A stretch of DNA of 34,535 nt from Pseudanabaena frigida (GTDB lineage: Bacteria; Cyanobacteriota; Cyanobacteriia; Pseudanabaenales; Pseudanabaenaceae). A program made the position numbers and the translations under genes. Shown here piece by piece: positions 1 to 24,457 of this stretch. The first letter of the stretch is position 1. Every line of letters begins with the position of its first letter. The stretch spans positions 1 to 34,535 of the forward strand of contig QBML01000038.1 in assembly GCA_003242085.1 (NCBI GenBank), given 5' to 3'. Below the pieces are notes generated by a model. That model saw only the letters and a list, made by a program, of their open reading frames with translations, had not been told where the DNA came from and did not search any database.

Positions 1-3
1 TAA

Positions 4-33
4 TCTACGGTTTTATCATGTAGTTACCGTAGA
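4..33. promoter_or_regulatory. Inverted repeat, possible operator
   Basis: The 8-base arms TCTACGGT (4-11) and ACCGTAGA (26-33) are perfect inverted repeats around a 14-base spacer. A related CTACGGTA occurs at about 5522, upstream of the second substrate-binding protein gene. It could be a dimeric regulator site, or part of an element cut by the window edge. The function is inference only. Confidence 0.2.
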
Positions 34-181
34 ATGTAAAGCTAAGTATGTCACTAGGTGTAAAAAAAATCAATCTTTTTTGTTGATAAATGTGAAACTT
101 TGCACTATAGAACAAATGTTCTACTGGTAGAAGACAGTCTATGTAAGCTTTTTGGTTATTTCGCTTCATAATAACCAAAAT

Positions 182-224
182 CCAGAGGAGAGTGGTGGAG
201 CTTTGCTCCACCACTCTCCTCTGG
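182..224. terminator. Perfect 20-bp hairpin, probable terminator
   Basis: Arms 182-201 and 205-224 are perfectly complementary over 20 bp with a TTT loop, followed by GTTTTA. This is a strong Rho-independent-like hairpin that would end transcription of a gene left of the window, or act in both directions. The rest of 1-431 shows no convincing gene. It holds an A/T-rich leader with a small palindrome, ACTAATAATTAGT, at 289-301, and presumably the promoter of the first operon. Confidence 0.7.
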
Positions 225-431
225 GTTTTATGTCTTAACTTATTTAGCAGTAGCTATAAGCTCAACATCGATCAAAATATTTAGATGAACTAATAATTAG
301 TATTTCGCATAATTGTAGTCCAGATGACATATCTTTTTCGCTTAACTGTGGCAAAGTTATGCTAACAATCTACGACAAACCAATCGGATAACGAGGGTAT
401 TGCTAGTAAATAGTTAGGAGCTAAGAAAACT

Positions 432-737
432 GTGATTGAGCTTGTCAGCGCTACCCGTTGTATTCAATGCAATATTTGCGTTTCCGTTTGTCCCACCAAT
501 GTCTTCGATCGCGTTGTCGATGCTCCACCAGAGATCGCAAGGCAAAGTAATTGTCAAACTTGCTTTATGTGTGAGTTGTACTGCCCTGTTGATGCGCTCT
601 ATGTGGACTCAAACGCTAATGAGCATGTAGTCGTGGATGAAAAAACTCTCATTGCATCGGGAGTTCTCGGCAGCTATCGCAGGAGTATTGGCTGGAGTCA
701 AGAACGTCCACTCTCCACGTCAACATCGAAAAATTAA
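432..737 (+). CDS. 2x[4Fe-4S] ferredoxin-like protein
   Basis: A 101-residue soluble protein with two canonical [4Fe-4S] motifs. Cys10, 13, 16 and 20 (CIQCNICVSVCP) form the first, and Cys41, 44, 47 and 51 (CQTCFMCELYCP) the second. This is the layout of bacterial dicluster ferredoxins and of AprB-like electron-transfer subunits. The start is a GTG with AGGAG at 416-420 upstream; no in-frame ATG precedes the first cysteine motif. The tail after about residue 60 has no recognised motif. It lies upstream of a substrate-binding protein and an AprA/FrdA-like flavoprotein at 2026, so it probably passes electrons to or from that flavoenzyme. The partner is inferred from position only. Confidence 0.85.
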   Translation: MIELVSATRCIQCNICVSVCPTNVFDRVVDAPPEIARQSNCQTCFMCELYCPVDALYVDSNANEHVVVDEKTLIASGVLGSYRRSIGWSQERPLSTSTSKN

Positions 738-826
738 TAGCAGTAAAGAATTGCTACGGAAAGCGCAACACTTCTTTAGCCAAAAATTAATAAAGCAATT
801 GATCGCAAATTTAAGAGGTGTGGGTA

Positions 827-1879
827 ATGCAACCAAAATCTGGACATAGAATTTTACCTAAATGGACAAAATCAGCGATCGCCGTAATAGCTATTATTGC
901 TTTGACGCTAGCTACAAGTAGCTGTAGCACAGGCACAGTACAAGTAACCAAAGATGCTGATGCACCCAAGGTCGCCACCGCAAAGCAAACATCTACGGAA
1001 TCCGTGGTACTAAATGTTGGATTTATTAGTTCTGAAAGCAAGATTCCCATTGGCCCTGAAGGTTGGGCTTTAGAAAAAAACTGGTTAGTTCCTGAACTCA
1101 AGGAATTTGGAATTAGCGAAGTTAAATTTGTTCCCTTTGTTGGGGGGCCACCTCTAAATGAGGCGATCGCAGGTAATCGTCTTGACTTAGGAATATATGG
1201 CGATACTCCCGCATTGGCGGGGCGATCGGCAGGTTTGAAGACCGTCATTATCAATCAAAATCGCGTTGGTAATGATGCATATTTAATTACTAAGAAAAAT
1301 GGCGCGAAAACAGTAGAAGAGTTAAAGGGTGAAAAGGTTGGCGTTACCAAAGGAACCTATTTACATCGTTATTTACTGGGTCGCTTAGAGAAAGCGGGTA
1401 TTGCTAAGGATGTCAAGCTCGTACAGGTTTCCACTGCGGATTCTAAAGCAGCTTTGGAACGGGGTGACATTGCGGCTTATCCCTTTTCGATTGCGATCGG
1501 CTTGGAGTTAATCGCTCAGGGCTATCCTGCGATCGATCGAGCCAAAAACCATAAGGAACTGGTTGGCTCAGGTGTCACGGTGGTTACTGAAGATTTCTTG
1601 AAAAAGAATCCTCGGTTTGTAGAGAAGTGGGAAAAGATTCGTCTCAAAGCCCTAGAGGATATCAAAGCAAATCCTGATGCTTTCTATAAGTTTGCAGCTA
1701 AGGCAAGTGGATATTCTGAGGAAGTTATCAAACAGGCTTATCCCATTGAGTTGTTCACGCAAGAATCATTTCCTGCTGAAGGTTTGCAGCTACTCAATTC
1801 CACCAAGCAGTTTCTCGCCGATCAGAAGTTGTTAAAAACCAACTTTGAGATTAAAGAATGGCAGTCGCCTAGTTCTTAG
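827..1879 (+). CDS. SsuA/TauA/NMT1-like substrate-binding lipoprotein (SBP 1)
   Basis: A 350-residue periplasmic-type binding protein of the nitrate/sulfonate/taurine family. A hydrophobic signal segment ends in a lipobox near ATSSC, so the mature protein should be lipid-anchored. The core has the family's features: an N-terminal lobe ending in the segment LDLGIYGDTPALAGRSAG, then EELKGEKVGVTKGTYLHRYL, then an ALERGDIAAYPF segment that fits a ligand-pocket strand. ATG at 827 is preferred over GTG at 818 because AAGAGG sits about 8 bases upstream of it. It lies between the ferredoxin and flavoprotein genes, suggesting it feeds their substrate. It is clearly diverged from the other four binding proteins here. 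The ligand is unknown; sulfonate-like is inferred from family and neighbours. Confidence 0.85.
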   Translation: MQPKSGHRILPKWTKSAIAVIAIIALTLATSSCSTGTVQVTKDADAPKVATAKQTSTESVVLNVGFISSESKIPIGPEGWALEKNWLVPELKEFGISEVKFVPFVGGPPLNEAIAGNRLDLGIYGDTPALAGRSAGLKTVIINQNRVGNDAYLITKKNGAKTVEELKGEKVGVTKGTYLHRYLLGRLEKAGIAKDVKLVQVSTADSKAALERGDIAAYPFSIAIGLELIAQGYPAIDRAKNHKELVGSGVTVVTEDFLKKNPRFVEKWEKIRLKALEDIKANPDAFYKFAAKASGYSEEVIKQAYPIELFTQESFPAEGLQLLNSTKQFLADQKLLKTNFEIKEWQSPSS

Positions 1880-1883
1880 CAGA

Positions 1884-1963
1884 GATCCCCCCCAGCCCCC
1901 CTTATAAAGGGGGGAGAATTTTTTTATCTTCTTCCCCCTTTATAAGGGGGATTGAGGGGGATC
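1884..1963. repeat. MITE-like GATCCCCC...GGGGGATC inverted repeat, copy 1
   Basis: About 80 bases. The outer arms are GATCCCCC and GGGGGATC, and each arm contains its own near-palindrome of the form CCCCCTTTATAAGGGGG. The whole therefore folds into one long stem or two smaller hairpins. It lies between the SBP 1 stop and the flavoprotein start. Related copies are at 3699-3779 and 14277-14353. Confidence 0.8.
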
Positions 1964-2025
1964 GAAACCTTAAACCGTAGACAGATCTCAAACTTATTGC
2001 CAAATTATTAATTGAGGAAAACATT

Positions 2026-3645
2026 ATGTCTCGCCAAACAAAAACTCTTTCTGAAATCAATTTAGAAGCAGATGTATTAGTCATCGGTGGTGGACCAGCA
2101 GGTACTTGGTCAGCATGGAGCGCTGCACAAAGTGGCGCAAAGGTGATTCTCGTAGATAAGGGCTATTGTGGAACCAGTGGTGCTGCCGCCGCCGCAGGCA
2201 ATGGCGTATGGTACATTCCACCCGATCCTGAGCAGCGCGAACAAGCAATGGCAAGTCGGGAAGCGATGGGCGGTTTTCTCGCCGATCGCAAATGGATGGA
2301 GCGTGTACTCGATCGCACCTATGACAATGTAAATACTCTTTCTGAGTGGGGCTATCCTTTTCAAGCCGATGTCGATGGTCAGCCCATTAAGCGATCTCTA
2401 CAAGGTCCTGAATACCTACGCCTAATGCGTAAAAAAATTCGTAAAGCAGGTGTAGAAATTCTCGACAATAGCCCTGCTTTGGAATTGCTAGTTGATAGTG
2501 AAGGTGCAGTGGCTGGCGCAAAGGGAATTAATCGCCAAACTGGTGAAAGTTGGACTGTGAAATCCGCAGCGGTAATTATTGCGACGGGTGGCTGTGCTTT
2601 CTTGAGCAAATCCCTTGGTTGCAATGTTCTCACTGGTGACGGCTACTTGATGGCAGCCGAAGCAGGAGCCGATTTCTCAGGGATGGAATTTTCCAATGCC
2701 TATGCGATCGCCCCTAGAGATTCCTCGGTTACTAAAACTCGCTTCTATACATGGGCTTCCTTTACCTACGAAGATGGCACGATCGTCGAAGGTGCAGGAT
2801 CGGCAAAGGGTCGTTCTGTCATTGCTAAGACTCTAATTGATCAACCTGTTTATGCCCGTCTCGATAACGAAGTTACCGACGAGATCAGAGATTGGATGCG
2901 AGCTTCTCAACCAAATTTCTTTATCTATTTCGATCGCGCTGGCATCGATCCCTTTACTGACCGATTCCCGATCACTTTGCGTCTAGAAGGCACGGTACGC
3001 GGTACGGGTGGTATTCGCATTGCTGATTACTCCTGTGCGACTTCCGTGGCAGGACTCTACGCCGCAGGTGATGCTGCTACTCGAGAATTAATTTGCGGTG
3101 GCTTCACTGGCGGCGGTAGCCATAATGCCGCTTGGGCAACCTCTTCGGGCTATTGGGCTGGGCAGTCGGCGGCGGAATATGCGGTGTGCTTAGGTACAAA
3201 AGTTAGCGATCGCCAAGTGCGTGCGGTCGGTGATGCAGGGCTACAACTGGATGGACGCAAAGCCTTTAATCCTGAAGAAGCGATTGCGGCTACACAAGGC
3301 GAAGTCTTCCCCTACGATCGCAACTGGTTCCGTTCTGAAGCCACTCTCAAAGCTTCTCTCCAAAATCTCGATCACGTTTGGAATGAAATCCGCAACAGTG
3401 GGGTACAGGGCAAAGATCAAGTTGTCCGCGCCCGTGAAGCTGCATCAATGGTATCGACTGCAAGATGGATGTATAACAGTGGTTTAGCCCGTACTGAAAC
3501 TCGCGGTATGCACCGTCGTACTGATTTCAACAAGCAAGATGCAAACCAGCATTACCGCCTACTTAGCGGCGGTCTGGATCAAGTTTGGGTCAAGCCTGAT
3601 GTTGAATCAGTAAAGGTTGAGAAGAAGGAATTAGTGACAGTTTAA
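2026..3645 (+). CDS. FAD-dependent oxidoreductase, AprA/fumarate-reductase flavoprotein family
   Basis: A 539-residue flavoprotein. A Rossmann FAD site lies near the N terminus (DVLVIGGGPAG, residues about 16-26), with an SGAAAAAGNG segment typical of the SdhA/FrdA/AprA flavin-binding region. A second FAD contact follows in GLYAAGDAATRELICGGFTGGG. It has no signal peptide, so it is cytoplasmic. In the family such proteins transfer electrons between an organic or sulfur substrate and an Fe-S partner. The dicluster ferredoxin at 432 is the obvious candidate, giving an AprAB-like pair. ATG at 2026 follows GAGGAAAAC. The true substrate cannot be read from the sequence; sulfur chemistry is inferred from context and from resemblance to adenylylsulfate reductase alpha subunits. 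Confidence 0.8.
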   Translation: MSRQTKTLSEINLEADVLVIGGGPAGTWSAWSAAQSGAKVILVDKGYCGTSGAAAAAGNGVWYIPPDPEQREQAMASREAMGGFLADRKWMERVLDRTYDNVNTLSEWGYPFQADVDGQPIKRSLQGPEYLRLMRKKIRKAGVEILDNSPALELLVDSEGAVAGAKGINRQTGESWTVKSAAVIIATGGCAFLSKSLGCNVLTGDGYLMAAEAGADFSGMEFSNAYAIAPRDSSVTKTRFYTWASFTYEDGTIVEGAGSAKGRSVIAKTLIDQPVYARLDNEVTDEIRDWMRASQPNFFIYFDRAGIDPFTDRFPITLRLEGTVRGTGGIRIADYSCATSVAGLYAAGDAATRELICGGFTGGGSHNAAWATSSGYWAGQSAAEYAVCLGTKVSDRQVRAVGDAGLQLDGRKAFNPEEAIAATQGEVFPYDRNWFRSEATLKASLQNLDHVWNEIRNSGVQGKDQVVRAREAASMVSTARWMYNSGLARTETRGMHRRTDFNKQDANQHYRLLSGGLDQVWVKPDVESVKVEKKELVTV

Positions 3646-3698
3646 ATTCCCTCACCACCTCGTCTATAACTTCCCTGTAAGGCTCATGAGTTACTAAA

Positions 3699-3779
3699 GA
3701 TGCCCCTCAATCCCCCTTAAAAAGGGGCAAGAAGAAAGGAAAAAATTCTCCCCCCTTTTTAGGAGGATTGAGGGGCATC
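3699..3779. repeat. MITE-like inverted repeat, copy 2
   Basis: The outer arms are GATGCCCCTCAATCCCCC and GGATTGAGGGGCATC, with internal C-run/G-run hairpins. It has the same architecture as 1884-1963. Both copies are followed about 12-25 bases later by a shared CGTAGACAG string just before a gene start. It sits in the 5' leader of the decayed ABC transporter gene. Confidence 0.8.
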
Positions 3780-3820
3780 TACACCTTGAAACGTAGACAG
3801 AGAGAATAAAGGAGCCAAAA

Positions 3821-5437
3821 ATGACGATCGCAACTCAGATCGTAAGATTTTCAACGCGCCGCCGATGCCCCCGATCGGTCAGCGACACCCTTCCGCTTTA
3901 TTTGGCATTTCACCAGTCACTATCATTGGTTCTATGTGGGCATGGTTTCCCTAGAAATTCTGCATGCGGTTTCAGGAATCATGCTTCCCTATACCATTAG
4001 CGAGATTATGCGCGGTGTCACTAGAGCTCCTAGCCAAAATACGGCTCCGCTTGAGGCTATGTTGAATCCATCCCATGCAGGCTTAAGTACTTTTGTTGGT
4101 TTATGGACTTTTTCGTTCATTACGATTTCCTATTGGTTAGCTCAGAGAAGTCACCCCTATAACCTCAAAGCCTTGTTAGCCCGTATTGGAACCCTTGGGC
4201 AAATTGTCGATTCGGTTATAAATCTTAGTAGTGTGCGTCTATTTACGAGGATTCCCTTTGAACGTAAATATTTACGCGATCGCCATGTAGAGGAACTAAA
4301 AGATGTTCGGCTGTCAAATTGGTATTCTGAGCAGGTGAAATGGTTCCAGTTCATCGCCGCCGCCGTTCTCAAGATTGGGACGCTCTATTATGCCCTCACT
4401 CTATGGGCAAATGGACAGATTCAAGTAGCTGACTTTGTCATGGCAAGCAGTCTCGCGCTTTTGATTATTTCGGAAGCAAGAAACTTAAGTCGCCGCTTCT
4501 TAGATTTTTTTGAACAGATTGGCAATGTCAGCAATGGGGTTTATACAATTATTCAGCCCCACGAAATTATCGATCAAGATCGACCTATTGCCCATCAGAT
4601 TAGCCAAGGCAAAATCGAATTTCGGGATATTAACTTCAGTTATTCCGAAGAGAAAAAGGTCATTGAGAATTTATCGGTCACGATTCAATCAGGGCAAAGG
4701 GTAGGGCTGGTGGGCTTATCTGGCTCAGGTAAATCTACCTTTGTGAATTTAGTATTGCGCCTATTCGATCCCCAATCTGGACAAATATTAATTGATGGTG
4801 TCGATATTCGCGACATCACTCAACATGATCTCCATGCACAGATTAGCTTGATTCCCCAAGATCCTTCCCTATTCCATCGCACTCTTTTGGAAAATATTCG
4901 CTATGGTCGTCTTGATGCCACTGATGATGTGGTTATCGAAGCAGCCCGCAAAGCAAATGCCCATGAGTTTATCGCCCAAATTAAAGAGGGGTATCAGTCC
5001 CTTGTCGGTGAGCGGGGCGTAAAGCTGTCGGGTGGTCAGCGCCAAAGAATTGCGATCGCGAGGGTCATTCTCAAAGATGCACCGATTCTAATTCTTGATG
5101 AAGCGACTTCGAGCCTTGATTCAATTACCGAACATGCCATTCAAGACACTCTCCATAAGGAAATGAATGGTAAAACCGTAATTGTCGTGGCGCACCGTCT
5201 TTCCACAATTTCCCATTTAGATCGCATCCTCGTATTTAATCATGGGAAAATAATTGAAGATGGTTCCCACGCTAACTTGCTGGTACTAAAAGTGCATACC
5301 ATCGACTATGGCAGATGCAAGCAGGCGGATTCTTACCTAAAAATCTGAGCGATCAAGATTTTGGCAATAATGCTCAAAATAACGGATCTAAAAACGGGTT
5401 TCCAATTGGCGCGATCGCTTCTCCTTCCAAATCATAA
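3821..5437 (+). pseudogene. ABC exporter-type transporter (fused TM and ATPase domains), degraded
   Basis: The intended start is ATG 3821 after AAAGGAG. That frame (MTIATQIV...) breaks at about 3844, and the rest of the gene runs one frame over, reading DFQRAAD...FIWHFTSHYHW into the long open frame from 3936. A second shift near 5285 takes the C terminus out of frame: LWQMQAGGFLPKN is readable to a stop at 5437, while the open frame stops at 5348. The membrane domain is also short. The sequence jumps from the first helix region (SEIMRGV) to SHAGLSTFVGLWTF, so roughly 70-100 residues (my memory of the family) appear to be missing. The ATPase domain is intact: Walker A GLSGSGKST, signature LSGGQRQR, Walker B ILILDEATSSLD and a switch histidine in VVAHRLS. 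Export function is probably lost unless the shifts are sequencing errors. Confidence 0.75.
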
Positions 5438-5514: not shown

Positions 5515-5622
5515 TTATAAACTACGGTATTTACGTGTATATTTAGTAGATTAGTCAAGATCTTTGATTTGCACAGGATCTACAGAATTTCAATAATTTC
5601 CCATAACTCGCTAGACAAGTCC

Positions 5623-6744
5623 ATGAAAGAACTGCCTCCATTGTTTAAGGTCTTCACTCGCCCCGATCAAGTCCAAAAAATTAAACGGCGATCGCTACTT
5701 TTTTCTGCCGCTTATGGGCTTATTGTAGCTACCACTTTAATTAGTTGCAGTGGCGCACCAACTAACACAGCTACCAACTCTCCTGACAATAAATCCGTCG
5801 CAACAAATAGTCCAAATTCTGGAGAGAAGAAAGTAATTCGAGTTGTTAGGTCTAAGCAACTTGGCGGTTTAGCCGTACTAGAAAAAAAAGAATTACTAGC
5901 TAAAGCTCTTCAACCCCTTGGCTATGAAGTGAAATGGGCAGAATTTGCCGCAGGACCTCAAGCTCTCGAAGCATTGAATGCCAAAGGTTTAGATATTGCT
6001 TACACTGCCGAATCTCCACCAGTATTTTATCAAGCCGCAGGGAATGAACTGATTTTCATTGGGGCTACGGCTTCTAATGGTAAAGGTATCTCTTTACTTG
6101 TTCCGAAGGATTCACCAGTTAAAAGTATCCAAGATTTAAAAGGTAAAAAAATTGCTTTTCAAAAAGCATCAATTGGACATTACTTAGCAGTACGAGCCTT
6201 TGAAAATGCGGGCTTAACTATTAATGATTTCGAGTCGGTATTTTTACCACCTCCTGATGCAGCCGCAGCCTTTAGTCAAGGTTCACTTGCTGGCTGGTTT
6301 GTTTGGGATCCCTTTGTTCCTCGCACTGAAGCAAGCGGCGCTGGAAGGGTACTATTTGATGGTGAGAAATTGCGTGATACTCGTAATTTTATATCAACTA
6401 GACGAGATTATTACACTGATAATAAGGAAGCAATTAAGATCTTTCTATCAGAGTATGAAAAAGCGGAAAAATGGATTCAAGACAATCCTAAAGAAGCCGC
6501 AGAATTGTTGACTGATGTATCGAAAATTGATGTACCAACTTTACTAAAAATGCATCCTAAATATCAGTATGGCTTGCGTCCATTTTCTCAAGAAATTATC
6601 GATGAGCAAGAGCGTGTTGCTGATTTCTGGTTCAGGCTCAAATTGATCCCTAAGCGTCCTGATGTCAAAAAGGGATTTCTAACTCCAGAAGAATATGCTT
6701 CGTTTACACCATCTGAAGTATTGGCGCTTGCTAAAAAGCCTTAA
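5623..6744 (+). CDS. SsuA-like sulfonate-type substrate-binding lipoprotein (SBP 2)
   Basis: A 373-residue binding protein. The N terminus has twin arginines followed by a hydrophobic stretch and a lipobox (KIKRRSLLFSAAY, then LISC), suggesting Tat export and lipid anchoring. The body carries SsuA-family blocks: VIRVVRSKQLGG, EFAAGPQALEALNAKGLDIA, ESPPVFYQAAG, GKKIAFQKASIGHYLAV, and a GWFVWDPF segment near the pocket. ATG 5623 is chosen because it aligns with the start of the next gene (MKxLxxLF...KIKRRSLLFSAAY in both), although no clear ribosome site is seen; a TTG further upstream is unlikely. It is a close tandem paralogue of SBP 3. A terminator hairpin overlaps its stop codon, so the two copies may be expressed separately. 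Confidence 0.88.
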   Translation: MKELPPLFKVFTRPDQVQKIKRRSLLFSAAYGLIVATTLISCSGAPTNTATNSPDNKSVATNSPNSGEKKVIRVVRSKQLGGLAVLEKKELLAKALQPLGYEVKWAEFAAGPQALEALNAKGLDIAYTAESPPVFYQAAGNELIFIGATASNGKGISLLVPKDSPVKSIQDLKGKKIAFQKASIGHYLAVRAFENAGLTINDFESVFLPPPDAAAAFSQGSLAGWFVWDPFVPRTEASGAGRVLFDGEKLRDTRNFISTRRDYYTDNKEAIKIFLSEYEKAEKWIQDNPKEAAELLTDVSKIDVPTLLKMHPKYQYGLRPFSQEIIDEQERVADFWFRLKLIPKRPDVKKGFLTPEEYASFTPSEVLALAKKP

Positions 6745-6785: not shown

Positions 6786-6812
6786 TGTTATTTATTATTG
6801 AAAATTAAATTT

Positions 6813-7973
6813 ATGAAACCTTTAACAACTTTATTTCAATTTTTTGAAAGCTCTCACAAGGGAACAAAGATTAAACGGCGATCGCTACTTTTTTCCGCAG
6901 CCTACAGCCTTGTTGTATCAACTGCCTTAATCGGTTGCGGTACTACTCCAACCAATACCGCAACCAACTCCACGAATTCCACAAATCCATCAACCGTCGC
7001 GAGTTATGCTAAGACAACTACCGCAGCCAAGCCTGCTGCTAGTGGCGAGAAAAAAGTAATTCGGATTGTGCGTTCTAAGCAGCTTACACCTCTTGCTGTG
7101 CTGGAGAAAAAAGGAGATTTAGCGAAAGAACTAGATAAAATTGGTTATGAAGTAAAATGGGCGGAATTTGCCGCAGGTCCACAGCAACAGGAAGCACTCA
7201 ATGCTAACGGGCTGGACATCGCTTCTACTGCCGAATCACCACCTGTATTTGCTCAAGCTGCCAATAATCCGATTGTCTATATTGGCGCAAGTGCCACTAA
7301 TGGTAAGCCGATCGCCTTGTTAGTGGGCAAGGATTCCCCCATTCAATCTGTACAGGATCTTAAAGGCAAAAAGATTGCTTTTCAAAAAGCTTCCATTGGT
7401 CATTACCTAGCTGTGAAAGCTTTTGAAAAAGAAGGTCTAACGATCAATGATTTTGAATCGGTCTTTTTGCCCCCATCCGATGCTAGTGCTGCTTTCAGTC
7501 AAGGTAAAGTTGATGCTTGGTTCATTTGGGAACCCTTTGTGACGAGGACTGAATTAAGTGGTACAGGTCGGATCTTACTTGATGGTGAAAAACTGCGTGA
7601 TACTCGCAACTACTACACTACCACCCGTACATTCTATGAAGGTAATAAAGAAGCAATCAAGGTTTTCTTTGAAGAACTGGAAAAGGCTGATACTTGGGTG
7701 AAGGCAAATCCCAAAGAAGTATCAGAACTGCTAACTACTGTCACCAAAATTGAAGTACCGATTTTGGAAAAGATGCACGGTAAATACACCTACGGATTGC
7801 GTCCCATCACTGAAGAGATCATCAAAGAACAGGAGCAGGTTGCTGACTTCTGGTTCCGTTTGAAGTTGATTCCTAACAAACCAGATGTTCGCAAAGGATT
7901 TCTCACACCTGAAGAGTATGCCTTCATTACACCTAAAGGTGTTCTCAAACTTGCAGGGAATCCCAAGTCCTAA
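6813..7973 (+). CDS. SsuA-like sulfonate-type substrate-binding lipoprotein (SBP 3)
   Basis: A 386-residue paralogue of SBP 2, arranged in tandem. It has the same twin-arginine lipoprotein leader (KIKRRSLLFSAAY...LIGC) and a Thr/Asn/Ala-rich linker of about 50 residues after the lipobox, longer than in SBP 2. The core blocks repeat those of SBP 2, for example GKKIAFQKASIGHYLAV, FESVFLPPSDA and WFIWEPF. Differences cluster in the linker and in small pocket-side changes such as GWFVWDPF against AWFIWEPF, which would fit divergence in ligand preference. ATG 6813 is preferred over TTG 6798 by alignment with SBP 2. The neighbour downstream is a TauD-type dioxygenase, so a sulfonate or similar organosulfur ligand is a reasonable inference. 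Confidence 0.88.
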   Translation: MKPLTTLFQFFESSHKGTKIKRRSLLFSAAYSLVVSTALIGCGTTPTNTATNSTNSTNPSTVASYAKTTTAAKPAASGEKKVIRIVRSKQLTPLAVLEKKGDLAKELDKIGYEVKWAEFAAGPQQQEALNANGLDIASTAESPPVFAQAANNPIVYIGASATNGKPIALLVGKDSPIQSVQDLKGKKIAFQKASIGHYLAVKAFEKEGLTINDFESVFLPPSDASAAFSQGKVDAWFIWEPFVTRTELSGTGRILLDGEKLRDTRNYYTTTRTFYEGNKEAIKVFFEELEKADTWVKANPKEVSELLTTVTKIEVPILEKMHGKYTYGLRPITEEIIKEQEQVADFWFRLKLIPNKPDVRKGFLTPEEYAFITPKGVLKLAGNPKS

Positions 7974-7983
7974 TTTATTTGCT

Positions 7984-8029
7984 AATTGATTGGTAGGGGC
8001 AATTCATGAATTACCCCTACTAATCAATT
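7984..8029. repeat. TAGGGGCAATTCATGAATT palindrome, copy 1
   Basis: A nearly perfect palindrome centred on AATTCATGAATT with GTAGGGG/CCCCTAC arms, extended by AATTGATTG and TAATCAATT flanks. It lies between SBP 3 and the TauD gene and would form a strong RNA hairpin. Reading through it creates a spurious upstream extension of the dioxygenase frame (VGAIHELPL), which is why the dioxygenase start is placed at 8059. Other copies are at 8955-8982 and 32463-32510. Confidence 0.85.
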
Positions 8030-8058
8030 ACATAAACTTATTAACCCTAATTAAAATT

Positions 8059-8940
8059 ATGACCACAACAATTTCTAGCCATTCTACTACTAAGCAAGAA
8101 GTAAAAATCACTCCTCTGGATGCACCTTTAGGAGCCGTAGTTACTGGCTTAGACGCTAGTAAGCCCGTCGATCCCGCCACGATTTTACGACTGAAGCAAG
8201 CCCATCGCAATTATCACATTCTCATTTTTAAAAATCAGAAGTTAACTGACGAGCAGCTAAAGAATTTTGCCTATTACTTTGGCGATTTATTCGTTCCCCT
8301 TGACGAAACTCCCGTCCTCGCTTCTAAAACAGGGGTTACACCAGTGGTCATTCCCGTAGCAAATATCGAAGGTGGTTTTACGGGGACTGGAGAACTTTCT
8401 TTTCATGCCGATCACCATTGGACACCCTATCCTTCAAGCGGTTCATTTCTCTATGCCGAAGAAGTGACAACTAAGGGTGGTGAAACAGCTTGGCTCAATC
8501 TTAATCTTGCCTATGAATCTCTAGATGCTGCAACTAAGGAACAGATTAAAGATTTACAGTTAATTACCTACAATCCCTTTGTGCGTGATTCTGATTCACC
8601 TAAGCGCTTGTATCGTTACGATACTAGTACACCACTAGTTGCATCTGTATTTGCACATCCACTTGTACGTACTCATCCTGAAAGTGGATTAAAGATTCTC
8701 AGCCTCGGTTATGCGACAGAAGTATCCTTAGTGGGAGTCGATCCAGAGGAAGGTTCGGCACTAATTGCTCAATTGCGAGAGCATCTCAACCAACCCAAGT
8801 TCTATTACGAACATAAGTGGTCTGTGGGCGACATTGTGTATTGGGATAACCAATCAACTCTGCATCGTCGCATTGCCTTCGATCCTAGCGAGCGTAGAGT
8901 TCTGAAGCGTATCAGCCTTTCTGGTAGCCGTCCATTTTAA
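8059..8940 (+). CDS. TauD/TfdA-family Fe(II)/2-oxoglutarate dioxygenase
   Basis: A 293-residue cytoplasmic dioxygenase. The iron facial triad is visible as His116-Ala-Asp118 (FHADHHW) and His269 (STLHRRI), with an arginine-rich C-terminal block (ERRVLKRISLSG) that would bind 2-oxoglutarate. In this family the enzyme hydroxylates the carbon next to a sulfonate, sulfate ester or aryl ether, releasing sulfite or another leaving group. ATG 8059 is chosen because upstream codons fall in a palindromic repeat. It lies directly downstream of two SsuA-like binding proteins and upstream of a methyltransferase, all on the same strand. It is clearly distinct from the second TauD-like protein at 14381. 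The substrate is not determinable from sequence. Confidence 0.88.
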   Translation: MTTTISSHSTTKQEVKITPLDAPLGAVVTGLDASKPVDPATILRLKQAHRNYHILIFKNQKLTDEQLKNFAYYFGDLFVPLDETPVLASKTGVTPVVIPVANIEGGFTGTGELSFHADHHWTPYPSSGSFLYAEEVTTKGGETAWLNLNLAYESLDAATKEQIKDLQLITYNPFVRDSDSPKRLYRYDTSTPLVASVFAHPLVRTHPESGLKILSLGYATEVSLVGVDPEEGSALIAQLREHLNQPKFYYEHKWSVGDIVYWDNQSTLHRRIAFDPSERRVLKRISLSGSRPF

Positions 8941-9868: not shown

Positions 9869-10960
9869 ATGACTTCCGAATTCGATATACCGCGTCGTCG
9901 CTTTATCACTTTGACTGCACAAGGTTTAACAGGGTTTGCTGTATCACTGTTACTAGGAAGTTGTGGTGAATCAACCTCAACTACAGCAGCTAATTCGTCT
10001 ACCGTTAATAGCCTTGCCAGTAAAGATCCAAAAAACTTAGGAATCAAAGCTAAGGTTCTCCGCATGGGATATCAACAGGCAGGTGAGCTACTAAGAGCTA
10101 GACAAATTCTTGAAAAACGCTTCGATCCTCTAGGAATCAAAGTGGAATGGGCGCAATTTGCTCAAGGACCACAGCTCATGGAAGCGATGAATGTGGGTAA
10201 GATCGATCTGGGCTTAGTTGGCGAAACACCACCAATCTTTGCTCAAGTAGCAGGAGCTAATATTGTCTATGTAGTGGGAACCAAAAGAACACCATTAACA
10301 GGTCAAGCTTCTATTATTGCTGTACCACCCGAATCGACAATTCAGAAATTAGAGGATATTAAAGGTCAGGAAGTATACTTTCAAAAGGGTTCTGCATCCC
10401 ACTATTTTATTGTCAGAGCTTTGCAGGAAGTTGGCTTAACGATCAAAGATATCAAGGTTAAAAGTGCGCCGACTGTTGAAACTAGAGGAGCGTTTATTGA
10501 AGGAAAAATTCCTGTTTGGGTATCTAACGATCCTCACTATGCGATCGCCGAAGACTTAGGTCGGATTCGGGTAATTAAAGATTCGAGTAATTTAGACACG
10601 CCTGGAGCCTACTATGTCGCTAATAGACCTTTCGCCCAAGAGAACCTAGGTTTGTTAAAAATTGTGATTGAGGAACTTGAAGCTTTAGAGAAGTGGGCAG
10701 ACAGTAATCGTGCTGAGGTTGCCCAGATTTTAGTTAAAGAACAAAAACTTAAGCTTAGCGTAGCCGAAAAGGTAGTATCACGTCGCCCCTATGCAGGACG
10801 TAGAGGTTTGACTCCAGAGTTAATTAAAGAACAGCAAAAAGTTGCAGATCTGTTTTTTACTGAAGGTGTGATTCCTAAGAAAATTAATATCCAAGATGCA
10901 TTATTACCTGCTGAAGTTTATGCCGCAATTACACCAGTTGCATTATTAAAAGATACATAA
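9869..10960 (+). CDS. SsuA-like substrate-binding lipoprotein with Tat-type leader (SBP 4)
   Basis: A 363-residue binding protein. Its leader, PRRRFITLTAQG followed by a hydrophobic run and the lipobox LLGSC, is a good twin-arginine lipoprotein signal. The core carries the SsuA-family blocks WAQFAQGPQLMEAMNVGKIDLG, GETPPIFAQVAG, GQEVYFQKGSASHYFIVRAL and IPVWVSNDPHYA. It differs from SBP 2/3 in the pocket segment (WVSNDPHY against WFxWxPF), so it may take a different ligand. GGAGAA at about 9855 supports ATG 9869. It follows the methyltransferase by 45 bases and precedes a dienelactone hydrolase. No ATPase or permease is beside it. Confidence 0.88.
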   Translation: MTSEFDIPRRRFITLTAQGLTGFAVSLLLGSCGESTSTTAANSSTVNSLASKDPKNLGIKAKVLRMGYQQAGELLRARQILEKRFDPLGIKVEWAQFAQGPQLMEAMNVGKIDLGLVGETPPIFAQVAGANIVYVVGTKRTPLTGQASIIAVPPESTIQKLEDIKGQEVYFQKGSASHYFIVRALQEVGLTIKDIKVKSAPTVETRGAFIEGKIPVWVSNDPHYAIAEDLGRIRVIKDSSNLDTPGAYYVANRPFAQENLGLLKIVIEELEALEKWADSNRAEVAQILVKEQKLKLSVAEKVVSRRPYAGRRGLTPELIKEQQKVADLFFTEGVIPKKINIQDALLPAEVYAAITPVALLKDT

Positions 10961-14276: not shown

Positions 14277-14353
14277 GATCCCCCCTAGCTCCCCTTTCGT
14301 AAAGGGGGAAAAGAATAAAAAAGTCCCCCTTTACAAGGAGGATTTAGGGGATC
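14277..14353. repeat. MITE-like inverted repeat, copy 3
   Basis: The outer ends are GATCCCCC and GGGGATC, with internal hairpins CCCCTTTCGTAAAGGGGG and CCCCCTTTACAAGGAGG. It is the same family as 1884-1963 and 3699-3779, again ending a few bases (27) before a start codon, here that of the second TauD gene. Confidence 0.8.
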
Positions 14354-14380: not shown

Positions 14381-15301
14381 ATGAGTTCCAAACATTTTGA
14401 AATTAAACCCGTTGCAGGTCGCATTGGCGCTAAATTAATTGGTGTTGACCTTAGCACCAATCTTAGCGATGAAGTCATTGCTGACATTCGCAAAGCCCTT
14501 GTATTCTATAAAGTCATCTTCTTCCGTAATCAAAATTTGGACGCAGATGGACAACTTGCCTTTGCCCGTCGCTTTGGCGAAACCACTACCGCCCATCCCA
14601 CGGTTCCATCACTGGCTAATCAGCCCCATGTTCTCGATCTCGATTACAGCCGAACCGAAAGCCGTGCGAACAATTGGCACACCGATGTCACCTTCGTGGA
14701 TCGCCCACCTCTAGGTTCCGTACTTCGTGCCGTTACTATTCCTCCCGTTGGTGGTGATACGGTTTGGGCAAATTCCGTAACTGCCTATCAAGATTTACCC
14801 GTTCATTTGCGTGATCTCGCTGATACCCTCTGGGCAGTCCATAGCAACAAGTATGACTATGCTGAAGCTGCGGCTGATCTCTCTGAGCAACAGAAGGAAT
14901 ATCGCAAGACCTTCACTTCCACGGTTTATGAAACCCTACATCCTGTCGTGCGCGTGCATCCTGAATCAGGCGAACGCGGTCTATTTATCGGCGGCTTTGT
15001 GCGTCAGATTAAGGGACTTTCTCAGACCGAATCCAATGACATTCTTCGCTTGCTGCAATCCTATGTCATTCGTCTAGAAAATACCGTGCGTTGGAAATGG
15101 AAGGAAGGCGATGTTGCTTTTTGGGATAACCGCGCCACACAACATTATGCGATCGCTGATTATGGCACTCAACCCCGCCGAGTCCAGCGTGTAACCATTG
15201 CTGGCGATCTTCCCGTTAGCATCGATGGCAGAACGAGTCAAGCCGTTAAAGGTGATTCTTCCGCCTATACTCCCGATCTAGCTGCTGTGGGTGTGGTATA
15301 A
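14381..15301 (+). CDS. TauD/TfdA-family dioxygenase, taurine-dioxygenase-like
   Basis: A 306-residue Fe(II)/2-oxoglutarate dioxygenase. The iron ligands are His100-Thr-Asp102 (NWHTDVTF) and His255 (RATQHYAI), almost the same numbering as I recall for E. coli TauD (His99, Asp101, His255). The 2-oxoglutarate arginine lies in RRVQRVTIAGD. The early block (KPVAGRIGAKLIGVDLS) is also TauD-like. It should oxidise a sulfonate or related organosulfur compound and release sulfite. TAGGAG about 9 bases before ATG 14381 is a good ribosome site. The flavin monooxygenase starts 5 bases past its stop, so the two are almost certainly co-transcribed and translationally linked. Confidence 0.9.
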   Translation: MSSKHFEIKPVAGRIGAKLIGVDLSTNLSDEVIADIRKALVFYKVIFFRNQNLDADGQLAFARRFGETTTAHPTVPSLANQPHVLDLDYSRTESRANNWHTDVTFVDRPPLGSVLRAVTIPPVGGDTVWANSVTAYQDLPVHLRDLADTLWAVHSNKYDYAEAAADLSEQQKEYRKTFTSTVYETLHPVVRVHPESGERGLFIGGFVRQIKGLSQTESNDILRLLQSYVIRLENTVRWKWKEGDVAFWDNRATQHYAIADYGTQPRRVQRVTIAGDLPVSIDGRTSQAVKGDSSAYTPDLAAVGVV

Positions 15302-15305
15302 AACT

Positions 15306-16676
15306 ATGACTGAAAAACAGACTGAAAAACGCAAACTAAGACTTGGTGCATTCCTGATGAGTTCAGGACATCACGTTGCTTCTTGGCGCTATCCTGATGC
15401 TAACGCTAATGGCGGTTTAGATTTTAACCACTTCCGTAAAATCGCTGAAACTGCCGAACGAGGAAAATTCGATACGATTTTCTTCGCTGATGGTGTGTCG
15501 GTTCGCGATCGCGGTCAAGACAAAGACATCATCAGCCGTGCAGGGCATGTCGCACATTTTGAACCAATTACGCTGCTTTCGGCATTATCTGTCGTTACTG
15601 AGCATATTGGCTTGATCGCCACGGTTTCCACTACCTATAATGAACCCTATCATCTTGCGCGTAAATTTGCTTCACTCGATTACCTTAGTGGTGGTCGGGC
15701 TGGCTGGAATTTGGTGACATCGGCAACCGATAGTGAAGCGAAAAACTTCAATCTGGACAAGCATCCAGATCATGCGCCACGCTATCAACGCGCCCGTGAA
15801 TTTGTGGATGTGGTCAAAGGGCTGTGGGACAGTTGGGAAGATGATGCCTTCATTCGCGATAAAGAATCGGGTATCTTTTTCGAGCCTGATAAACTCCATG
15901 TTCCCAATCATAAAGGTGAATACTTCTCGGTACGCGGTCCTCTAAATGTGGCGCGTCCCATTCAAGGCTACCCTGTGATTGTGCAGGCAGGCTCATCGGA
16001 AGATGGCAAGCAACTGGCGGCGGAAACGGCGGAAGTGATTTTCACGGCGCACCAAACCCTTGCGGATGCTAAAGCTTTTTATGCAGATGTGAAGGAACGG
16101 GCGGCAAAATTTGGTCGCAATCCCGATCACATTAAAATCATGCCAGGAATCTTCCCTGTGATTGGTCACACCGAAGAGGAAGCGCAAGAGAAGTTCCAAA
16201 AGCTACAGGATGGTATCGATCCTAAAGTTGGTTTGGCTTTGTTGGGCAGTATGTTGGGTAATGTTGATTTGTCGGGATATCCCCTTGATGGACCTCTGCC
16301 TGATTTACCTGAAACTGAGTTACAGCAGAGTCGTCAAGATTTGTTGATTAGATTGGCGCGACGGGAGAATCTAACTATCCGCCAACTCTATCAATGGATT
16401 GCGGGAGCGAGAGGTCATTATCAAATTGTTGGTACTCCTAAACAGATTGCCGATCGCCTTGAAGAATGGTTCATCAACGATGCTGCTGATGGCTTCAATA
16501 TCATGCCTCCATATTTACCGACTGGATTAGAAGAGTTTGTGGATTTGGTAATTCCGATCTTGCAAGAGCGTGGTCTATTCCGTACTGAGTATGAAGGAAA
16601 GACCCTCCGCGAAAATCTCGGTTTGCCTCGTCCTACTAATCAATTTGTGGTTGAGAAGGAATTGGTAGCTGTCTAG
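15306..16676 (+). CDS. NtaA/SnaA/DszA-family FMN-dependent monooxygenase
   Basis: A 456-residue luciferase-like (LLM class) flavin monooxygenase. Typical NtaA/SnaA/DszA blocks are seen: LRLGAFLMSSGHHVASWRYP at the start, FDTIFFADGVSV, LSGGRAGWNLVTS, and the loop NFNLDKHPDHAPRYQRAREF. Family members use FMNH2 and O2 to attack nitrilotriacetate, pristinamycin precursors, dibenzothiophene sulfone or alkyl sulfides, and need a separate flavin reductase. No flavin reductase gene is in the window. ATG 15306 follows the TauD stop by four bases and is preferred over the overlapping GTG at 15291. With the two TauD proteins it makes at least three oxygenases in one island, suggesting a broad organosulfur range. 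Confidence 0.9.
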   Translation: MTEKQTEKRKLRLGAFLMSSGHHVASWRYPDANANGGLDFNHFRKIAETAERGKFDTIFFADGVSVRDRGQDKDIISRAGHVAHFEPITLLSALSVVTEHIGLIATVSTTYNEPYHLARKFASLDYLSGGRAGWNLVTSATDSEAKNFNLDKHPDHAPRYQRAREFVDVVKGLWDSWEDDAFIRDKESGIFFEPDKLHVPNHKGEYFSVRGPLNVARPIQGYPVIVQAGSSEDGKQLAAETAEVIFTAHQTLADAKAFYADVKERAAKFGRNPDHIKIMPGIFPVIGHTEEEAQEKFQKLQDGIDPKVGLALLGSMLGNVDLSGYPLDGPLPDLPETELQQSRQDLLIRLARRENLTIRQLYQWIAGARGHYQIVGTPKQIADRLEEWFINDAADGFNIMPPYLPTGLEEFVDLVIPILQERGLFRTEYEGKTLRENLGLPRPTNQFVVEKELVAV

Positions 16677-22848: not shown

Positions 22849-23122
22849 GCTATAGAAATTTATAGAAGATTTGCATAAGTTCTAATAATATAGAAATAAC
22901 TGCAAAAAGTCTAACATTCTAGCAGTATTACTAGGATATAACGCTTTATTTGCGTTATTTACAGCGTTTTATCCGTAAAATTTGCTGGTAAATTTTGCCA
23001 ATTTAAAGAAATATAAAAAATTCTTAGACTTTGTTTCAATATAATGCTCTGTATAGGTTACAAGATTTATTCAGGTTTATTTTTAGCAATATTTATTATC
23101 TATGTTTATCAAAGGAGCCGAT

Positions 23123-24457
23123 ATGATTAGGTCTTTGCTTGATCTTCTACCTAAACGCCCCAAGCAACATCAAAGTACTAGAAGAAATATTAAAGGTATT
23201 AAGCGATCGCCCAATATCTCTTCTAGATCCAACCTGAAAAAACTGACCATGCAATTTTGTCTTGGGCTTGCTTCAAGTTTGGCGATGGGGATAACTTTTG
23301 ATAGTCAGGTTGGGGCAGTTCCTAAATCTATCAGCAGTAACTCTCCATTGATTGCTCAGATAAGTCAACCAAATCAAAATAACTCATCATCTAACCCACC
23401 AGTTAAAGATTCGCCAGTGAGGTTACTGGAGACGGTAGGACTATTTGTGGGTGGAATTATTTTCTGCATTGCTTTAGATCGCTGGTTCTCGAAGCGTTCT
23501 TCCCCATCGGATAACACTCCCTTAGCGGAGCAAGCCAAAAAGCTCAAACAACTCAAAATTGGCTATCCAGAGGGCATGACAAATCTGGAGGTACTACGAA
23601 CTCAAGGCTTACTAGAAGAGCGGTTACGACCATTTGGACTGAGTATCACTTGGACAAGTTTTCTATCAGCTTCCGCTTTGATTGAGGCTCTGAGCAATGG
23701 CACAATTGACTTCTGCGGTGGTGGTGGTACGGCAAGCATTTTTTCGCAAGCCGCCGATCATATATTTGTGCGCGTAGCTAAAGAGAAATATACAGCTCCT
23801 AAAGGTCAAGCGATTTTAGTACCAGAAGATTCACCAATTCAGACCCTTGCGGATCTCAAGGGCAAAAAAATTGTTTTTGATAAAGGTTCCAGCGCCCATT
23901 ATATTTTAATCCGCGCCTTGCATAAGGTTGGTCTAGATTTTAGTGACATTGAGCCAATTTACCTGACTCAGCCACAGGCTCTATCGCTATTTCGGCAAGG
24001 CGAAGCGGATGCTTGGGTGATTTGGGTTCCCTATGCCCAGACTCAAGCTCGCAGTTCCTATCCAGGGCGATTGATCGCTGATTTAGAAAGCATTTTTGGC
24101 GATCAAGCCTCTGTGGAAGTTCCCACTTACTACTATGCGATTCCTGAACTTGTCCGTGACTATCCCGACCTACTCAAGGTAATCTTAGAGGAAGTTAATG
24201 AGGCTGGCGCATGGGCGAAGAAGCAGGAATTAGAATCTGTGCAACGTTTAGCAGCTCAACATGAAATCGATCCATCGATTGTGGAAACATTGCAGCAGCG
24301 CAGTTCGGAACGAGCGATTATTCCCATTGATGATCAATCCCTTACGGCTCTTCAGCATCAAGCCAATATATTTAGAGAACTCAATCTCATTCCTGAACGA
24401 ATCAATGTCAGGGATGGTTCCTATAGTTTGCAAACTAAGCAAAACTGGACTTATTAG
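23123..24457 (+). CDS. SsuA-like substrate-binding protein with extra membrane segment (SBP 5)
   Basis: A 444-residue protein. The solute-binding core starts near residue 140 (LKIGYPEGMTNLEVLRTQG) and has the family blocks NGTIDFCGGGGTASIFSQAAD, GKKIVFDKGSSAHYILIRAL and ADAWVIWVPYAQTQ. Unlike the other four it lacks a lipobox. The basic N terminus is followed by one hydrophobic segment (MQFCLGLASSLAMG) and, about 50 residues later, by a second (ETVGLFVGGIIFCIALDRWF) just before the core. It may therefore be held in the inner membrane by one or two helices, with a Ser/Asn/Pro-rich linker. ATG 23123 follows AAAGGAG by six bases, better than ATG 23102. A methyltransferase gene starts 16 bases after its stop. 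Confidence 0.85.
   Translation: MIRSLLDLLPKRPKQHQSTRRNIKGIKRSPNISSRSNLKKLTMQFCLGLASSLAMGITFDSQVGAVPKSISSNSPLIAQISQPNQNNSSSNPPVKDSPVRLLETVGLFVGGIIFCIALDRWFSKRSSPSDNTPLAEQAKKLKQLKIGYPEGMTNLEVLRTQGLLEERLRPFGLSITWTSFLSASALIEALSNGTIDFCGGGGTASIFSQAADHIFVRVAKEKYTAPKGQAILVPEDSPIQTLADLKGKKIVFDKGSSAHYILIRALHKVGLDFSDIEPIYLTQPQALSLFRQGEADAWVIWVPYAQTQARSSYPGRLIADLESIFGDQASVEVPTYYYAIPELVRDYPDLLKVILEEVNEAGAWAKKQELESVQRLAAQHEIDPSIVETLQQRSSERAIIPIDDQSLTALQHQANIFRELNLIPERINVRDGSYSLQTKQNWTY

Follow-up and report, generated by a model that had tools for sequence, protein, structure and literature searches.

We analysed a stretch of 34,535 nucleotides from the cyanobacterium Pseudanabaena frigida (contig QBML01000038.1), referred to here as the window, which forms the start of its contig (C31) in a 5.39 Mb genome. 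Three consecutive genes on the forward strand encode an AsfB-like ferredoxin with two [4Fe-4S] clusters (positions 432–737), an AsfC-like sulfonate-type substrate-binding protein (SBP, 818–1879) and an AsfA-like flavoprotein (2026–3645), a flavin adenine dinucleotide (FAD) protein of the SdhA/FrdA/NadB/AprA superfamily. The sequences make it likely that this trio is a cyanobacterial Asf module, AsfB-AsfC-AsfA, which under sulfate shortage would obtain sulfur from sulfonates, probably aromatic ones, that the cell imports. We therefore assign it to the Asf family, a known kind of system and not a new one; the AprAB label given by an earlier sequence-only reading is not supported.

In the mechanism that we propose, AsfC captures the sulfonate on the outer side of the cytoplasmic membrane and passes it to an ATP-binding cassette (ABC) importer whose genes would lie elsewhere in the genome. 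In the cytosol, AsfA and the two-cluster ferredoxin AsfB would work as a redox pair that supplies the electrons for desulfonation, probably jointly with a flavin monooxygenase, either SsuD or the NtaA/DmoA-type enzyme of the surrounding gene island. The sulfite released would then enter assimilation. The family is now observed in cyanobacteria and Bacillota too, and the genome studied here holds a further, paralogous pair. Since the family used as the asfA marker occurs in cyanobacteria, phototrophs may draw sulfur from aromatic sulfonates, and whether AsfA is an electron carrier or the bond-breaking enzyme becomes testable. No literature link between asfA and cyanobacteria was present among the matches listed, in a search that left most subscription journals outside.

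Kinship of the trio with Asf

All three reading frames are open: the ferredoxin (101 residues) and the SBP (353 residues) start with GTG and the flavoprotein (539 residues) with ATG, with gaps of 80 bp between ferredoxin and SBP and 146 bp between SBP and flavoprotein. The ferredoxin was recognised by Pfam Fer4 families, the SBP by NMT1 and its placement in a clade, and the flavoprotein by FAD_binding_2, Succ_DH_flav_C and its identity to the locus of Cupriavidus metallidurans CH34 described below. Thus, the description of these genes as standing in a row on one strand is borne out by the open reading frames (ORFs), by Pfam and by recurrence in other genomes. The flavoprotein is present at 94–95% identity in five other genomes of the genus, with one copy cut short, and its named carriers include Pseudanabaena biceps PCC 7429.

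AsfA is the flavoprotein encoded by the asfRABC cluster for desulfurisation of aromatic sulfonates. A transposon mutant of asfA in Pseudomonas putida S-313 is described as having lost the use of aromatic sulfonates while keeping that of aliphatic ones (PMC4267179). The gene serves as a marker for aromatic-sulfonate desulfurisation in soil, with carriers in Proteobacteria and Actinobacteria (PMC4267179, PMC9694294). Polaromonas, Cupriavidus and Pseudomonas, reported as asfA carriers (PMC4267179), are also among the carriers of the present flavoprotein family. In CH34, AsfA and AsfB are given as Rmet_4334/5, a reductase-ferredoxin pair, and asfRAB is listed on CHR2 (PMC2864759). The only strong CHR2 match of the window flavoprotein lies at 928285–929832, with 62% identity over residues 7–524, and the next match has an E value of 8.9e-13. 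A ferredoxin gene adjoins this flavoprotein gene, and the CH34 ferredoxin (locus L098:9626-9961) shares 52% identity with the window ferredoxin and belongs to the same family. We placed the CH34 tags by position, setting the six TauD genes found against six published TauD tags and assuming the same circular order. The points are fitted by a line with a slope of 0.895 genes per kb, from which none deviates by more than 7.7 genes. By this line, 929 kb corresponds to tag 4334.5 (4338.8 by interpolation). The next related CHR2 flavoprotein, at 896 kb, falls at tags 4305–4308.

The eight cluster cysteines of the ferredoxin (C10, C13, C16, C20 and C41, C44, C47, C51) are invariant in 30 of 30 aligned ferredoxins, as is Trp88 within a conserved C-terminal G80..G87-W88 motif. 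The SBP scores 114 bits against the SsuA family, below the cut-off of 163.5, and its N-terminus is hydrophobic and signal-like and ends in a cysteine, which by eye resembles that of a lipoprotein. We constructed a tree in which 85 SBPs were reduced to 47 at 85% identity, excluding sequences with stops, below 270 residues or above 460 residues. The window SBP falls in a 21-row clade, supported at 100/100, with flavoprotein-linked SBPs of Bacillota, Nocardia and Pseudomonas, while the SsuA paralogues encoded in the window itself fall outside. Two Pseudomonas loci (L085 and L087) have the order flavoprotein-ferredoxin-SBP, which is that of asfABC, and the L085 SBP, third in this order, lies inside the clade.

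The trio shares with AsfABC of P. putida S-313 and AsfAB of CH34 a flavoprotein, a ferredoxin and a periplasmic SBP in an organosulfur setting. It differs in its B-C-A order and in having neither a LysR gene nor importer subunits among the scanned window ORFs. A further difference is that B and C are flanked by two AsfA paralogues in several cyanobacterial loci (A1-B-C-A2). An undescribed flavin and iron-sulfur enzyme acting on the imported compound had been suggested. The flavin/Fe-S pair is indeed tied to an importer-type SBP and likely metabolises what is imported, but the pair is not undescribed, as the flavoprotein and ferredoxin match AsfA and AsfB, and the SBP matches AsfC by clade and gene order.

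Conservation of the pair and the trio

We compared 71 loci from one scan of species genomes, comprising 35 from Bacillota, 11 from other bacteria and 25 from cyanobacteria. A ferredoxin gene lies directly downstream of the flavoprotein gene in 35/35, 11/11 and 9/25 of these, respectively, and so in all 46 non-cyanobacterial loci. This arrangement, found in 55 of the 71 loci, indicates that the pairing is not due to chance. A ferredoxin of the AsfB family occurs anywhere in the locus in 60/71, an SBP like that of the window within 3 kb in 55/71 and an SsuB-type ATPase within 6.5 kb in 43/71. The family is sparse in cyanobacteria, being present in 15 of 292 sampled genomes. The order ferredoxin-SBP-flavoprotein, whose conservation across cyanobacteria the sequence-only reading had named as a check, is conserved in relatives and recurs in 11 of the 25 cyanobacterial loci. 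Six of these 11 have a full extra flavoprotein gene before the ferredoxin (A1-B-C-A2), two have a remnant of it, and locus L037 has an A1 trace of 23 residues (E 0.005). In a quick tree, from which rows above 600 residues or 97% alike were excluded, the cyanobacterial flavoproteins separate into A1 (8 rows) and A2 (19 rows, including the window protein), with SH-aLRT values of 100 and 99. Thus, the Pseudanabaena genes are B, C and A2. No trace of A1 was detected in window positions 1–440, where the contig starts, or upstream in the P. biceps locus (L026).

Among 11 annotated plasmid records, six have the pair followed directly by an SBP gene, with permease and ATPase genes at hand. The pair has SsuD, SfnB and LLM genes as neighbours on a Nostoc edaphicum plasmid, and an Ssu-like group and an MFS gene on a Pseudonocardia plasmid. 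Three rhizobial plasmids (L107–L109) carry a desaturase, Opp-type ABC genes and a PhnD-like SBP upstream of the flavoprotein, a different neighbourhood which hints at another substrate in this branch. There are also possible signs of gene loss. In one genome consisting of a single contig (G023:C1:528513-529577, L010), AsfA is shortened to 355 matched residues and its gene may be decaying, and the A1 remnants in L032 and L040 point the same way. In a metagenome-assembled genome (MAG; L027:7026-9512), a single frame of about 829 residues spans the SBP and the flavoprotein, whose first 36 residues are unmatched, reflecting either a deletion or an assembly error.

Several observations weigh against assigning the trio to Asf. 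The link rests on the position of the CH34 gene and not on a tagged sequence. The SBPs nearest the pair in CH34 (L098) and Azospirillum (L104) lie far outside the clade of the window SBP, and we have slightly lowered our confidence for this reason. Those of Xanthobacter, Shinella, Paracoccus, Haematobacter and a Planctomycetota MAG form a separate 7-row group adjoining the clade; given this separation in the tree, the binding protein, and perhaps the substrate too, differs between Asf branches. No HTH_1/LysR gene was found within about 10 kb of the CH34 pair, although it was published as asfRAB, and a single-query search for asfR was also empty. Among the 28 window ORFs scanned there is neither a LysR gene nor an SsuB/SsuC-type importer subunit; the contig starts at window position 1, and the upstream side lies beyond it. 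AsfA lacks a nearby ferredoxin in 11/25 cyanobacterial loci (in L025 the contig ends first), and in 5/11 of the plasmid records the pair is not directly followed by an SBP gene. Finally, SsuD above the cut-off is missing from 3 of 19 AsfA-bearing genomes, and from G020.

We picked these 19 genomes by hand: the window's own (G000) and those in which 18 of the 71 loci lie. Two of the three without SsuD, from Neobacillus and Paenibacillus, also have no TauD at an E value of 1e-5. SsuD is thus rejected as an obligate partner. An AsfAB system working without any oxygenase is rejected as well, since LLM-family monooxygenases were found in four of four genomes examined, each without SsuD above the cut-off. 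Within the genus Pseudanabaena, SsuD above the cut-off accompanies AsfA in five of six genomes, compared with two of 20 genomes lacking AsfA (Fisher p 0.0018, uncorrected for kinship).

Fold and pocket of the flavoprotein

The window flavoprotein reaches the cut-off of no NCBIfam model among the best 25 shown. The highest scores are for TfrA (132.3 bits, cut-off 718), SdhA/FrdA (121.2/567.3) and PRK08275 (102.8/587), while the AprA-alpha models PRK06854 (61.7/557) and TIGR02061 (38.4/641.75) are outscored by the SdhA/FrdA and L-aspartate oxidase models. We used AlphaFold with an alignment of 52 family members to model the protein (mean pLDDT 85.1, pTM 0.89). The model superimposes best onto E. 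coli FrdA (Z 43 to 44), with the PAPS reductase at 39.5 and Archaeoglobus fulgidus AprA at 33.6. The SdhA/AprA-like assignment made earlier consequently holds at the level of the superfamily and no further. A small subunit with two [4Fe-4S] clusters, as AprAB would need, does stand beside the flavoprotein. However, the family scores and the fold do not support kinship with AprAB. Nor does the ferredoxin profile: among the best 60 of its 180 matches there is no AprB chain, and the beta chain of the PAPS reductase does not outscore PsaC.

Residue conservation was assessed in a 100-row alignment, which excluded flavoproteins with stops or of 480 residues or fewer, and in a table of 22 rows hand-picked from it. 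The position of the flavinylated His45 of SdhA is Gly (G52) in 22/22 and 100/100 rows, and FAD is therefore probably bound non-covalently in AsfA. His242, His354 and Arg399 are dicarboxylate-site residues of SdhA (E. coli numbering). The position of His242 holds Tyr in 21/22 rows and His in one, that of His354 holds Glu in 22/22 and that of Arg399 holds no Arg in 22/22, the alignment being loose at the latter two. R263 aligns with SdhA R286 (Arg in 19/22; Arg in 88 and gaps in 10 of the 100 rows) and T236 with T254. T236, E321, R325, R353 and E354 are invariant in 100/100 family members, many of them close kin, Y226 is Tyr in 99/100 and position 237 is Lys or Arg in 100/100. The FAD-facing catalytic residues have accordingly not all been lost, and the pocket region is conserved. 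From these alignments, the dicarboxylate site has probably been lost in AsfA, which seems to conserve a distinct charged pocket. The P/APS loop is shortened. Positions 122–124, which adjoin K120/R121/S122 of the PAPS reductase in an alternative alignment, are ambiguously aligned and not invariant: of the 100 rows, 83 have R/K at the first, 60 have R/K at the second and 73 have S at the third. The GGGSHNAA motif was considered as a mirror of the AprA active-site His and rejected, as H366 is His in only 75/100 rows and the GGH motif of the PAPS reductase lies elsewhere.

The conserved charged pocket suggests that AsfA may act on a substrate and not in electron carriage alone, because a pure electron carrier would not need it. 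AsfA could itself be catalytic, binding the sulfonate or an activated form of it beside FAD and reducing or cleaving it, with AsfB as electron partner in the relation of beta to alpha chain in P/APS reductases; the key step would need no oxygenase. We regard this as possible but tentative. Known members of the SdhA superfamily bind substrate beside FAD, and the near-invariance of Y226, position 237 and R263 alongside the five invariant residues, together with the genomes lacking SsuD and in part TauD, would fit such a role. The pocket-lining role of these residues, however, is read from a sequence alignment, LLM monooxygenases are present in every SsuD-lacking genome that was examined, and the published review model has the C-S bond oxygenated, with AsfA/B supplying electrons (PMC4267179). 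The stricter form of this idea, in which AsfA is a ferredoxin-fed desulfonating flavoenzyme that attacks the sulfonate sulfur via FAD within the conserved charged pocket, as AprA does on adenosine 5'-phosphosulfate (APS), appears unlikely. If true, it could be driven by light-reduced ferredoxin in cyanobacteria, and the A1-B-C-A2 duplication would mark two substrate specificities with one shared ferredoxin and binding protein.

True AprAB-type chemistry, the interconversion of APS with adenosine monophosphate and sulfite, for example to dispose of sulfonate-derived sulfite, is highly improbable. AprAB and the PAPS reductase of Methanothermococcus thermolithotrophicus (8a8o) have the same cofactor set, an FAD alpha chain and a 2x[4Fe-4S] beta chain; both 8a8o chains are recognisable relatives, and P/APS reductases share with the window protein an SG- where the flavinylated SH- stands. 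For AprBA of SAR11 (Pelagibacter), a role has been proposed in detoxifying the sulfite that arises when organosulfur compounds are broken down (PMC5069961). Yet structural-alignment identity to the P/APS reductases is 21–22%, the AprA scores are far below their cut-offs, FrdA is the nearer fold, the loop is shortened, and the genome encodes a far more AprA-like protein on contig C18 (327.2 bits to PRK06854, itself below the cut-off of 557). We give equally little credence to a dicarboxylate-converting enzyme of the fumarate-reductase or succinate-dehydrogenase type, to which the sulfonate setting would be incidental. Such an enzyme would fit the best superposition and the aligned active-site Arg and Thr; the window protein also has the fold, the FAD domain and the C-terminal R-x-E-x-R-G-x-H motif in common with SdhA/FrdA. 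The covalent FAD His is absent, however, the three SdhA dicarboxylate positions are changed, and the genes linked to the flavoprotein encode sulfonate-type binding proteins and ABC components. The Asf assignment of the trio remains the best account.

The C18 protein (L116:8086-9810) is a PRK08275-family flavoprotein (1004 bits, cut-off 587) encoded within an Ssu region, where its gene comes immediately after an SsuA-like one. It shares with the window protein the SdhA superfamily and a sulfonate-SBP neighbour, but is much nearer to the PAPS reductase and AprA, and the next downstream gene is not a ferredoxin. Within this genome, it may be a stronger candidate for AprA-like chemistry than the window protein.

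Organosulfur setting and neighbouring features

The surrounding island on the forward strand encodes four SsuA-family SBPs above the TIGR01728 cut-off of 163.5 bits, namely a tandem pair of paralogues at 5569–6744 (213.7 bits) and 6798–7973 (232.8), and two further proteins at 9869–10960 (172.8) and 23102–24457 (170.2). Two TauD-family dioxygenases (PF02668) lie at 7990–8940 and 14381–15301, followed by an FMN-dependent (LLM) monooxygenase of the NtaA/DmoA family at 15291–16676 (TIGR03860, 626.7 bits, cut-off 279.7), a candidate oxygenase partner. The window also encodes a NamA-like flavoenzyme. Elsewhere in the genome, SsuD is present and C18 carries an SsuB-like ATPase gene, as judged from its sequence. 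A second flavoprotein-ferredoxin pair lies on C19 (L096:7678-11187), with a flavoprotein 49% identical to that of the window and an LLM-type monooxygenase gene directly after.

In P. biceps, a gene for a 390-residue arylsulfotransferase-family protein directly follows asfA. The match to this protein covers its first 206 residues in L027 and its first 75 in L007, and the gene may be incomplete in both. Colinearity of the window (3601–5348) with P. biceps (L026 9790-10962) is lost near position 3833, shortly after the arylsulfotransferase-like gene has begun with its start codon. Beyond this break, the window carries an ABC-exporter ORF, whose Pfam membrane-domain match starts only at model position 152, and both genes look truncated by a rearrangement. 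A search of the window's own genome for a copy of the arylsulfotransferase-like gene was empty; run without a positive control, it shows little.

An Rfam scan of 16 Bacillota loci and the window detected no riboswitch leading the flavoprotein operon itself, and a riboswitch link to the pair is weak. One S-adenosylmethionine riboswitch near the pair was observed in Ectobacillus funiculus (L062:10643-10749), with flavoprotein, ferredoxin and nitroreductase genes on one side of it and an Ssu/TauD operon on the other. In the window, repeat comparison revealed related GC-rich palindromic repeats of 77 nt (74% complementary) on each side of asfA, one between asfC and asfA (1887–1963) and another downstream of asfA (3699–3775). 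The repeat core, with up to two mismatches, also occurs at 14290–14308, giving six overlapping hits in total where 0.07 are expected by chance.

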